Positions 373 through 41,727 of a stretch of DNA of 41,927 nt are shown here, piece by piece. The translations under genes and the position numbers were made by a program. Position 1 is the first letter of the stretch; the number at the start of each line of letters is the position of its first letter. This stretch comes from Chlorobiota bacterium (GTDB lineage Bacteria; Bacteroidota; Ignavibacteria; Kapaibacteriales; NICIL-2), in contig JAOAGY010000014.1 in NCBI GenBank assembly GCA_026415505.1, forward strand, positions 1-41,927, in the 5' to 3' direction. The notes below the pieces were generated by a model that saw only the letters and a list, made by a program, of their open reading frames with translations, searched no databases and was not told where the DNA came from.

Positions 373-811
373 AGGAGCGAATATGCTTGGTCAAGACGCG
401 GCAGGAGGTGCTAACTTCCTGCCGCGTTTTTTGTAACTTGTGAGCGAGAAAAAAGAGCGCCTGGTGTGTCGCTAAATTCTGCTTACAGAAGCCGGCTCTG
501 CAGCCACTGTGTAGCTCTTGCGTGGAGATTGTGGTTGTTGAAAAATTTTCTTTGGTTTTTGTTGCGGTAGTTTGTATTTTCGGAACGGGTAGATTCAACA
601 CTCGCTTGCAGTGTGTTGCCGAAGGTTGACTGTCGAGTGTCAGGCGTGTCTGCCCAATGTCTCATCATCAATGTGTGATGTTGTAGCCATGATTCGATTG
701 CGACAAGTTTCTCTTGCGTCGGTCTTGGATGGTGCAGGACCAGTCAGAGAGATTGACGTTCAAGATGCCTATCAGCTTTCTCCATCATGTTCAACTATTA
801 GTCGGCGTACC
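373..811. other. 439-bp intergenic region between the two Ig-like genes
   Basis: Apart from the terminator at 396-432 I see no gene here. The stretch is richer in A and T than its surroundings, especially 535-600. Open frames on both strands are short and have no family resemblance. The frame of the next gene is open upstream to 611, but the signal peptide fixes its start at 812. The promoter of that gene should lie here. No exact TAnnTTTG element was found; the nearest sequence is the T-rich stretch around 540-585. Confidence 0.5.
396..432 (+). terminator. Rho-independent terminator after the Ig/T9SS gene
   Basis: A 14-bp stem (396-409 with 414-427) closed by a 4-base loop contains a single G-T wobble and is followed by six T on the plus strand (427-432). 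A run of A does not precede it at the same distance, so it most likely serves the plus-strand gene ending at 372. Confidence 0.85.
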
Positions 812-2008
812 ATGAATCGCTTTGCTATGCTTGTCCGCTCGGCGGTAGCGGCAGTTGGATTCGGTCTTGTGTCTTTTTGTGTGCTCGTTGCTTTGAGCAG
901 CACGGCGATGGCGACAGAGTACAAGATCACGATCGTGCAACCGCCACAAGACGCTACGGTCTGCGAGGGGCAGACGGTGACACTCACAGTGCAAGCAACG
1001 ACTGATTATCCGAACGGGCAATTCGGCTATCAGTGGTTGTTCCAGAATCAACCGCTCAGCGATGGTGGAAAGTACAGCGGAACGACGACAAACTCGCTCA
1101 CGATAACCAACATCAGTGCTGCCGAAGCCGGTGATTATACCGTCATCGTTAGCGTCACGAATGGAACTGGCGTCAATCCACAAACGGCACTGGCGCGAAT
1201 TACCGTGATTCCAGCACCGACAATTACACAGCAACCTCAGGCTGTTACGGTCTGCAGCGGACAGCAAGCCTCGATGAGCGTGGCGGTCAGTGGTGGACTC
1301 AACGTTCGTTATCAGTGGTATGTCAACGGTACTGCTGTTCCTGGTGAAACGCGCAGTTCGATTTCTGCAACAGCAAATCAAGCGATGGATGGTGCTCGAG
1401 TCTATTGCCGCATTAGCAGCGACTGTGGCGATGTGAGCAGCGATACTGCTACAGTAACCGTTCTTGTAGCGCCGACCATCACCCAACAGCCGACAGCATC
1501 CGATACGGCAGCGATCGGTCGTTCGTATCAGCTCACTGTCCAAGCAAGCGGCAGCCCGACGCTGCAATATCAATGGTACAAAAACGACCAACCGATCCCA
1601 GGAGCGACGAGCAATACCTACACGATTACCAATGTCAGCGCTAATGATGCCGGCACATATAAAGTCCGTATCACGAACAGTTGCGGCACCGTCGAGTCGA
1701 ACGCATCGGTGATAGCCGTTGCATCGGTCGAAGACGACGCGATTGCTGCGGGCTATCGGCTCCGCATCGATCCGCAACCTGCCAGCGACAACGTCACGCT
1801 TGTGGTGACGACACCGCACGCTGCATCGGTGACCGTCGAACTTGTGGATATGAGCGGTCGCTCGCTCGGCACGCTGTGGAGCGGTATCAGCAGCGGCAGC
1901 GAACAAAAGCTCGATGCCAGCATCGGCGATGTTGCAGCAGGCGTTTATCGCTGCGTGTTGCGGAGCGGTAGCTATCGCCTCTCGACACCGCTGGTGATCG
2001 TTCGATAA
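812..2008 (+). CDS. Secreted protein with three Ig-like domains and T9SS sorting domain
   Basis: 398 residues. The start at 812 is chosen because it gives a clean signal peptide (residues 1-34, hydrophobic VGFGLVSFCVLVALSS, cleavage near AMA/TEYK), although the frame stays open 67 codons upstream. Three Ig-like domains follow. Each has a YQW core tryptophan, and domains 1 and 3 have the A(G/N)DAG-Y-type strand F motif. Domains 1 and 2 carry a cysteine near the first strand (VCEGQ, VCSGQ). The last ~85 residues are a Por-type sorting domain (VELVDMSGRSLG ... AAGVYRCVLRSG), so the protein should cross the outer membrane by type IX secretion. It is a tandem paralogue of the gene ending at 372. 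No enzyme domain is visible; adhesion or surface-layer function is inference. Confidence 0.8.
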   Translation: MNRFAMLVRSAVAAVGFGLVSFCVLVALSSTAMATEYKITIVQPPQDATVCEGQTVTLTVQATTDYPNGQFGYQWLFQNQPLSDGGKYSGTTTNSLTITNISAAEAGDYTVIVSVTNGTGVNPQTALARITVIPAPTITQQPQAVTVCSGQQASMSVAVSGGLNVRYQWYVNGTAVPGETRSSISATANQAMDGARVYCRISSDCGDVSSDTATVTVLVAPTITQQPTASDTAAIGRSYQLTVQASGSPTLQYQWYKNDQPIPGATSNTYTITNVSANDAGTYKVRITNSCGTVESNASVIAVASVEDDAIAAGYRLRIDPQPASDNVTLVVTTPHAASVTVELVDMSGRSLGTLWSGISSGSEQKLDASIGDVAAGVYRCVLRSGSYRLSTPLVIVR

Positions 2009-3280: not shown

Positions 3281-3877
3281 ATGAACGAATTGCTCGGATT
3301 GCTGGCAGCCGGCGATACACGATTGTTCGAAGCCATAAACGCCGGCATGAATGCGGCGTTCTTGGATGCTGCAATGCCGCTGGTTACATCGTTCCGCACG
3401 TGGATCCCGCTCTTTGCGATCGGTATCGTGTGGCTCGTCGTCAGAGGCGGACGCAGCGGGCGGTGGTGCGCCGTGGCGATGATCGTTTCCGTTGCGATCG
3501 CCGATCCGGTGACCAATCGCATCGTCAAACCGCTCGTCGAACGCCAGCGACCGTGCCGGCAGATTCCTCATGTCGTGTTGCGCATTCCGTGTCCAGAGGG
3601 TCCATCGTTTCCTTCGTCGCATGCTGTCAACATGGCTGCTGTCGCGCTCGTGTTGACCCGATACTATCGGCAGTGGTGGCTGGTGTGGTGGAGTGCGGCT
3701 GCCGTCGTCGGTTTTTCGCGTGTGTATGTCGGTGTGCACTATCCCGGCGATGTTATCGCAGGCTGGCTTTTCGGCGCAGCGATCGCCAGTGCGACGCTGT
3801 GGGGCATAAACAACAGCGCCGCTTTCGTGCGAAAGCGGCGCTGCGGTGGTGGTGATGTCGCTCCTACATCGCGGTAG
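3281..3877 (+). CDS. PAP2-family membrane phosphatase
   Basis: 198 residues. The three PAP2 signature motifs are present: K83-x6-R90-P91, PSSH at 111-114, and SR-x5-H ending HYPGD (146-156). Several hydrophobic segments (about 42-54, 62-76, 116-126, 132-146, 157-175) place it in the inner membrane with the active site facing the periplasm. Relatives dephosphorylate undecaprenyl pyrophosphate, phosphatidylglycerophosphate or other lipid phosphates; the sequence does not tell which. Undecaprenyl-PP recycling would suit its place beside the cell-wall recycling gene anmK (inference). The last ~25 codons encode a basic tail and contain a 14-bp inverted repeat and part of a second hairpin that spans the stop codon. 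Confidence 0.85.
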   Translation: MNELLGLLAAGDTRLFEAINAGMNAAFLDAAMPLVTSFRTWIPLFAIGIVWLVVRGGRSGRWCAVAMIVSVAIADPVTNRIVKPLVERQRPCRQIPHVVLRIPCPEGPSFPSSHAVNMAAVALVLTRYYRQWWLVWWSAAAVVGFSRVYVGVHYPGDVIAGWLFGAAIASATLWGINNSAAFVRKRRCGGGDVAPTSR

Positions 3878-3948
3878 GAGCCGGGGAGTGCCCCCGTAAA
3901 AGAAGCGCAACTTCCCTGCCGCATGGCAGTCGGTGATGGAAGCTGCGC
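3814..3948. other. Cluster of four strong hairpins over the PAP2 3' end; possible structured RNA
   Basis: Four successive structures can be read directly. (1) A 14-bp perfect inverted repeat at 3814-3827/3830-3843. (2) An 8-bp perfect hairpin, GCTCCTAC with GTAGGAGC, at 3860-3881, spanning the PAP2 stop. (3) A 5-bp GC hairpin at 3882-3896. (4) A long stem, 3905-3915 with 3938-3948 with one mismatch, that encloses an inner hairpin CTGCC-GCAT-GGCAG (3916-3929). No T run follows on either strand, so a simple terminator is not convincing. I could not match it to a riboswitch class I know. It could be a leader of hslO, an sRNA on either strand, or a processed 3' UTR. Confidence 0.4.
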
Positions 3949-4091
3949 CTGTGTGAGGGTACCATGAAACGCGCACGCCATAAGACGCAGAAACCGGCAA
4001 AACATTTGACGGTCGCCGAAATTTTTTTTGCGGCAATAAATCGGCGCTTCGTTCGCCTTTGCTTGCAGATTCACCGCCACCACGTGTTCCG

Positions 4092-6160
<2,069 letters not shown>

Positions 6161-41653: not shown

Positions 41654-41727
41654 TCGGGGCGAGAGGACTTGAACCTCCGACCTCTTGGACCCGAACCAAG
41701 CGCGCTACCGGTCTGCGCTACGCCCCG
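41654..41727 (-). tRNA. tRNA-Pro (anticodon CGG)
   Basis: 74 bases without encoded CCA. Acceptor stem CGGGGCG/CGCCCCG with discriminator A, D arm with AGCGCAGACCGGTAGCGC, anticodon stem CTTGG/CCAAG with a 7-base loop TTCGGGT whose centre is CGG (plus-strand positions 41691-41693), and T arm GGAGG-TTCAAGT-CCTCT. C at position 1 and the CGG anticodon with G37 are tRNA-Pro traits. Confidence 0.95.

Follow-up and report, generated by a model that had tools for sequence, protein, structure and literature searches.

Between the gene of a PAP2 phosphatase and hslO, the window (the whole analysed stretch of 41,927 nucleotides from a Chlorobiota bacterium) carries a dense group of strong hairpins, which raises the question of what kind of RNA they form and on which strand. 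The original prediction offered three options, namely a structured leader of hslO, a small RNA on either strand, or a processed 3' UTR, and proposed a search of Rfam and an R-scape test for compensatory changes in relatives. The genes and the elements of the hairpin locus are as follows.

3281 to 3877, plus strand: the PAP2 phosphatase gene (PF01569, E 3e-22), convergent with the candidate small RNA.
4092 to 4988, plus strand: hslO (Hsp33; PF01430, E 6.3e-69), divergent from the candidate small RNA.
3806 to 3975, minus strand: the candidate small RNA of about 170 nt, drawn from homology, fold z and compensatory changes, with a putative 5' end placed by promoter spacing.
3903 to 3950, minus strand: hairpin P1 (13 pairs) with the inner hairpin P2, from folding and a helix alignment of six genomes.
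3882 to 3896, minus strand: hairpin P3, CGGGG/CCCCG, from folding and the six-genome helix alignment.
3860 to 3881, minus strand: hairpin P4, which holds the antisense of the PAP2 stop codon, from folding and the helix alignment.
3845 to 3859, minus strand: a conserved C-rich linker within GACAUCACCACCACCGCA, with 14 of 16 bases invariant in the segment 3843-3858.
3806 to 3844, minus strand: hairpin P5 with its T-rich tail, intrinsic-terminator-like and overlapping the PAP2 3' end, from a terminator scan and the helix alignment.

All four stems claimed between the two genes are present, at 3813-3950. The perfect 14-bp inverted repeat occupies 3814-3827/3830-3843, and the stem GCTCCTAC/GTAGGAGC occupies 3860-3867/3874-3881; the latter does cross a stop codon, as predicted, with the TAG of the PAP2 frame inside it at 3875-3877. 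The long stem AGGCGCAGCUUCC/GGAAGUUGCGCUU, within 3903-3950, exists together with its inner hairpin, but the 10 pairs ascribed to it are too few, as the minus strand forms 13, two of them G-U. Likewise, the statement that no T run follows the stems holds for the plus strand and fails for the minus strand, where the 14-bp stem is followed by the T-rich tail TGTTTATG. The stem and this tail were scored as terminator-like on the minus strand by a scan that gave 2 such sites in 501 bases versus 1.0 +/- 1.0 by shuffling and is weak taken alone.

The stems exceed chance expectation. The 170 nt of the minus strand at 3806-3975 fold with -82.1 kcal/mol (z -6.25, 200 dinucleotide shuffles), and the plus strand of the same stretch folds with -80.9 kcal/mol (z -3.85). 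The Rfam search of the whole window at gathering score returned a sole match, a tRNA at 41654-41727 on the minus strand, and no known family reached this score at the hairpin locus. At E values up to 10, nothing credible was seen at the locus, the sub-threshold matches having E 0.44 or worse.

The locus was found at the same place in all six genomes of one Kapabacteria genus. In a comparison of DNA similarity over 41 genomes, the genome of the window and five others of the same genus matched with E 4.1e-43 or better; outside the genus, these genomes gave short matches with E 0.015 or worse, or none. A covariance model gave 177-188 bits in each of the six genus genomes, which are the same genomes that it was built from. 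Model R1, applied to 197 genomes of the class, gave strong matches in no genomes but the 3 of the genus that the draw included, and weak ones (E 0.001-0.1) in five others, which we take for chance or terminator-like matches. In 10 other genomes of the order, hslO was present in all 10, and the fetched loci upstream of it contained no motif-like sequence; fold energies at those loci are without a shuffle control. A limited search of open-licence papers found no small RNA for Kapabacteria and, judged by title, no related small RNA divergent from hslO.

The strand was then read from the six genomes. Their fold z values were -5.1 to -6.7 on the minus strand versus -2.9 to -4.6 on the plus strand (100 shuffles each), the minus strand being the stronger one in every genome. 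In a helix alignment made by hand, which leans towards structure, the minus strand has standard pairs in 249 of 258 cells and the plus strand in 233. At six positions (P2-5, P3-1, P4-7, P4-8, P5-8 and P5-10), both partners have changed and the pair is retained in at least one genome. Pair 1 of P3 turns from C-G into A-U in G004 and is lost, as A-A, in G002; two neighbouring pairs of P4 are altered on both sides in G001, and pair 1 of P4 is broken in G003; in P5, T-A has become C-G at two stem pairs through changes of both bases. Pairing is lost at P4-1 and P5-11 in one genome each, and at P2-5 and P3-1 in one or two.

Where only one side has changed, at P1-2, P3-5, P4-3, P5-4 and P5-6, a G-U pair results if the minus strand is read but not if the plus strand is; at P1-8 all six genomes have a minus-strand G-U pair. 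One of the two minus-strand G-U pairs of P1 becomes G-C in G005, and the plus-strand reading of P1 has A-C mismatches where the minus strand has G-U. The loop-closing pair P5-12 is standard in only two of the six genomes on either strand, and its cells point both ways, as that of G004 (G-U) agrees with the minus strand alone and that of G005 (A-C) with the plus strand alone. RNAalifold, run on an unedited automatic alignment, recovered only 2 doubly changed pairs and misplaced P4 in G005. The stretch between P1 and P3 contains an additional hairpin (GCGCCCAUG...GGGCGC) in G002 and G004, an insertion seen in these two of the six genomes. The relatives also have T-rich tails after P5, although that of G005 is only weakly T-rich. 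Since the comparison covers only six genomes of a single genus, the covariation is modest; with pair counts in place of R-scape, the finding of a structured RNA nevertheless survives the check in relatives.

As the wobble pairs fit the minus strand, with the exception of the one ambiguous loop-closing pair, the hairpins are read neither as a leader of hslO nor as a PAP2 3' UTR. The divergence of hslO and the convergence of PAP2 further support a small RNA on the minus strand. Of the three options offered at the outset, the small RNA stays, on that strand, and the hslO leader and the processed 3' UTR drop out; a plus-strand leader or 3' UTR would leave unexplained the minus-strand G-U pairs, the minus-strand T-rich tails and the promoter-like footprint described below. 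We regard it as scarcely credible that a bidirectional terminator or the 3' UTR of PAP2 is all that the locus contains. Such a reading would suit the 14-bp stem, which lies where PAP2 ends and resembles a terminator when the minus strand is read, but its T-rich tail is a minus-strand one, and a plain terminator does not need an invariant segment of 25 nt some 100 bases away.

This segment and two conserved hexamers lie upstream of the hairpins on the minus strand.

3951 to 3975, minus strand: the 5' segment UGCGCGUUUCAUGGUACCCUCACAC, the proposed seed, with 25 of 25 bases invariant in six genomes.
3982 to 3987, minus strand: CGTCTT, a -10-like hexamer, 16 bases from TCAAAT, with 6 of 6 bases invariant in six genomes.
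4004 to 4009, minus strand: TCAAAT, a -35-like hexamer, with 6 of 6 bases invariant in six genomes.

The minus strand reads TCAAAT, 16 bases, CGTCTT, 6 bases and then the RNA. Invariance in the six genomes falls to 2 of 16 bases in the spacer and 0 of 6 in the gap after CGTCTT, and it is complete in the 5' segment (25/25) and in the 5' arm of P1 (13/13). For comparison, 33 of 78 bases are invariant at the start of the hslO coding sequence, 8 of 51 next to hslO and 13 of 58 at the PAP2 end. We read TCAAAT and CGTCTT as a putative promoter because of this conservation footprint and because the start that they imply falls at the 5' segment; it is in this way that the 25-nt segment is inferred to be the 5' end of the RNA. 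The hexamers do not match the sigma-70 consensus. The exact arrangement TCAAAT-N16-CGTCTT occurs once per genome, at this locus, in all six genus genomes, and in five genomes searched outside the genus it occurs once in G008 and three times in G009. A sigma-factor regulon with this arrangement was considered and rejected, as the six genus genomes hold no second exact site and the sites with one mismatch stay at the control level. Between the small RNA and hslO, at 4010-4040 of the window, there is also a conserved block, TTATTGC on the minus strand or GCAATAA on the plus strand, which may be part of the hslO promoter.

The same conserved stretch can be read on the plus strand as a leader of hslO, either an attenuator or a leader peptide starting with ATGAAACGC at 3964 after GAGGG. 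All six genomes do have this start (MKRA...) with a ribosome-binding-site-like sequence. However, the frame is 43, 42, 34, 33, 24 and 5 amino acids long across the six genomes, and on this lack of conserved length the leader peptide was rejected. The conserved bases form two hexamers with a loose spacer and not codons, and the numerous synonymous changes that a coding frame here would call for are not seen. Plus-strand folding is the weaker by z in all six genomes, the G-U pairs fit the minus strand, and a second copy of the motif sits in the 3' UTR of another gene. We consider an hslO leader highly improbable.

On the minus strand, the 5' segment resembles an anti-start sequence. Its reverse complement is the start region GTGTGAGGGTACCATGAAACGC, which consists of a ribosome-binding site, ATG and the codons AAA CGC; the segment is complementary to a ribosome-binding site plus the plus-strand start named above. 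In the free RNA, seed bases 1-25 have a predicted mean unpaired probability of 0.54-0.79 in the six genomes. Bases 16-25 are the most open (0.81-0.97), and bases 12-15 (UGGU) are mostly paired in all six (only 0.06-0.24). The C-rich linker may pair with the 5' segment according to RNAalifold.

In the genomes searched, the seed is confined to the genus, and it is present there twice. The 22-mer GCGYTTCATGGTACCCTCACAC gave 10 matches in a collection of genome contigs, two in each of 5 genus MAGs and none elsewhere in the collection, to which the genome of the window possibly does not belong; these MAGs are titled Candidatus Kapabacteria, Candidatus Kapaibacterium or Chlorobiota. The exact 18-mer core occurs twice in each of the six genus genomes, that of the window included; the three other genomes that were searched with it lack it even when 2 mismatches are allowed.

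The sequence of the seed suggests targets at the starts of genes, one of which lies in the window itself.

777 to 831, plus strand: the start region of gene A, a candidate target coding for a T9SS-type Ig-like protein, with its ATG at 812 and a predicted duplex of -24.1 kcal/mol.

Gene A spans 812-2008 of the window, 3.2 kb from the small RNA, and its product ends with a PF18962 sorting tail (29.7 bits, cut-off 27). The duplex was predicted in all five genomes examined, with -24.1 kcal/mol in the window and -25.4 to -26.5 kcal/mol in four relatives; G001 stays outside this count, its fetched locus stopping short of the gene. A second gene, B, was located in 4 of the 6 genomes, and there its start gives predicted duplexes of -30.0 to -38.7 kcal/mol. 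Gene B looks like a gene for a long secreted protein, a type that is read from its sequence in place of a domain assignment.

A search of the six genus genomes with a 19-mer of the seed complement at up to 3 mismatches yielded 9 sites beyond the twelve seed copies, versus 2 for the reversed-pattern control. Eight of the nine have an ATG in register at a plausible gene start and one does not. Judged by eye, the proteins at those eight starts are mostly signal-peptide-like or secreted-looking. G004 includes a gene that we take, from the look of the beginning of its protein, to be Cas9-like; its start region (G004:C1:69261-69279) differs from the seed complement by 2 mismatches. At the limit of 3 mismatches, G003 shows no site besides its seed copies. 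A universal target was given up, no single one being near-perfect in all six genomes. In 74 other genomes of the order, the 19-mer gave 39 sites, none closer than 2 mismatches, versus 16 for the reversed-pattern control (counted by hand). Since an anti-start seed matches gene starts anyway, as these 39 sites indicate, the enrichment of targets is modest.

Predicted pairing energies were examined in 400 kb of G004, for which 230 gene starts from a simple ORF caller, 1500 internal ATGs and 120 shuffled seeds were used. At -26 kcal/mol or better, the seed paired with 5 of 230 starts versus 5 of 1500 internal ATGs, and the best shuffle reached 4 starts (means 0.73 and 0.98). At -24 kcal/mol it paired with 7 starts versus 12 for the best shuffle (means 2.27 and 2.87), which it did not exceed. 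Of the five best starts in this sample, two are of the type with a ribosome-binding site plus ATGAA, one is a plausible gene that is paired otherwise, and two are not gene-like. The start of an ECF-sigma-factor-like gene (by eye) is among these five best predicted partners, with -29.9 kcal/mol and a different kind of pairing. Strong pairing of the seed is predicted at the starts of at least two families of secreted-protein genes.

The one further exact copy of the seed core that each of the six genus genomes contains has a constant setting. In all six, the motif comes 9-21 nt after the start of a host-gene stop codon and lies directly 5' of a GC-rich, terminator-like hairpin and a T-rich stretch that run in the same direction. 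This is the arrangement of a 3'-UTR-derived small RNA, with the seed in an mRNA 3' UTR that ends at a terminator, in six of six genomes. No promoter was recognised for the second copy. By eye, the host proteins are homologous across the six genomes; that of G005 has Ig-like, carboxypeptidase-regulatory-like and SdrD B-like domains and a C-terminal PF18962 sorting domain at 26.1 bits, just under the cut-off of 27. The own start of the host gene pairs with the seed at -18.1 in G004 and -15.6 in G005. Because this pairing is only moderate in the two genomes checked, self-regulation of the host gene is not indicated and was set aside. In the start regions of gene A, gene B and the second-copy host, TTGTTTCAC or GTTTCAC is often present about 20-30 nt upstream of the ATG and may be a promoter or leader element that these genes have in common.

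The setting of the second copy bears on a reading of the motif as DNA. The motif could be an operator, an imperfect palindrome around GGTACC that binds a dimeric regulator, with the hairpins as ordinary terminators. It is true that 14 of 20 positions of GTTTCATGGTACCCTCACAC are self-complementary and that a repeat search gives a palindrome of 77%. Nevertheless, an operator would be poorly placed between a stop codon and a terminator, the first copy is accompanied by three further conserved hairpins, and 8 of the 9 further sites fall on an ATG, which makes this reading very unlikely.

A structured minus-strand RNA might also have another job, such as protein binding or sequestration, a 6S-like function or cis-antisense action on the end of the PAP2 mRNA, its likeness to an anti-start being secondary. 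Such a job would agree with the conserved structure, with a second well-conserved segment, ACAUCACCACCAC (14 of 16 bases invariant), and with the overlap with the PAP2 end, although this end is itself poorly conserved (13/58). The 6S model RF00013 was undetected at E up to 1 in the six genomes examined (five of the genus and one of the same family), yet that search finds only 6 of 14 controls. The shape of 6S RNA is a long rod with a central bubble. The candidate instead has four separate hairpins, no Rfam family reaches its gathering score here, and the second locus repeats the seed and not the body. All this considered, we hold another job to be unlikely.

We therefore return to the small RNA that acts through its seed. 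That the locus holds a small-RNA gene is well supported by the conserved sequence and structure. As to its function, we think it probable that the gene encodes a trans-acting minus-strand small RNA of the GibS kind that blocks start codons and has a sibling in a 3' UTR. Such an RNA would be transcribed on the minus strand from about 3975 to 3806, away from hslO, and would end at the intrinsic terminator inside the PAP2 3' end. Its seed of about 25 nt would pair with mRNAs of secreted proteins, including T9SS-type surface proteins, over both the ribosome-binding site and the AUG, and so block their translation. The short sibling, made of the seed and the terminator hairpin, would deliver the same core from the 3' UTR of another secreted-protein gene.

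More tentatively, and with more doubt than confidence, we suggest that the two sources form a circuit that silences secreted (T9SS-type) surface proteins. The small RNA divergent from hslO and the 3' UTR would share one seed, so that stress or the synthesis of one exported protein would lower the translation of others in genomes in which Hfq was not detected. If true, this would give a small-RNA family to a lineage in which the limited search of open-licence literature found none. Its seed would itself specify the site of action, namely the region of the start codon in genes for secreted proteins, and a 3' UTR would give it a second route of delivery. It would allow Hfq-independent silencing at start codons to be tested directly and would add a post-transcriptional control of exported surface proteins.

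Among known systems, the candidate structured RNAs Chlorobi-1, Chlorobi-RRM, Lnt and SAM-Chlorobi come from a related phylum and were found by comparison (PMC2864571); the words hslO and Hsp33 are absent from their description. The Rfam models of the Chlorobi RNAs (RF01696, RF01697, RF01711 and RF01724) gave no match at the locus, either at gathering score or with the E limit raised to 10. Sibling small RNAs such as OmrA and OmrB are defined by overall similarity (PMC4211561). The genomes studied here resemble that case in having two predicted RNAs with the same seed, but one would be a free-standing gene and the other lies in an mRNA 3' end, and they have little in common beyond the seed and the terminator. 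OppZ and CarZ are described as autoregulatory small RNAs derived from a 3' UTR (PMC7398697). The second copy is like them in its place in a 3' UTR just before the terminator and differs in the moderate pairing of its host start, which does not indicate self-regulation.

The Hfq model PF17209 at E up to 0.01 matched in none of eight genomes (G000-G007, the genus and near relatives; control 5/14). MicA and RybB pair near the start of the target mRNA. Together with MicL, they are sigma-E-dependent repressors of mRNAs for outer-membrane proteins (PMC4618604), and the candidate would similarly lower the synthesis of exported proteins, the likely target class being alike. It departs from the MicA/RybB class in the lack of a detected Hfq in 8 of 8 genomes, and it resembles MicA and RybB in its likely target class; we claim neither a sequence relation nor membership in a sigma-E-type circuit.

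The nearest parallel in mechanism is GibS of Bacteroides thetaiotaomicron, a bacterium with no obvious Hfq; the 5' seed of GibS is highly conserved and unpaired and binds mRNAs over their start codons (PMC7366714). GibS is largely unstructured and has metabolic targets, whereas the candidate has a strongly structured body and predicted targets that are secreted proteins. What the two would share is an intergenic, trans-encoded RNA in a Bacteroidota lineage without obvious Hfq, with a conserved and extended 5' seed that pairs with start codons (PMC7366714).
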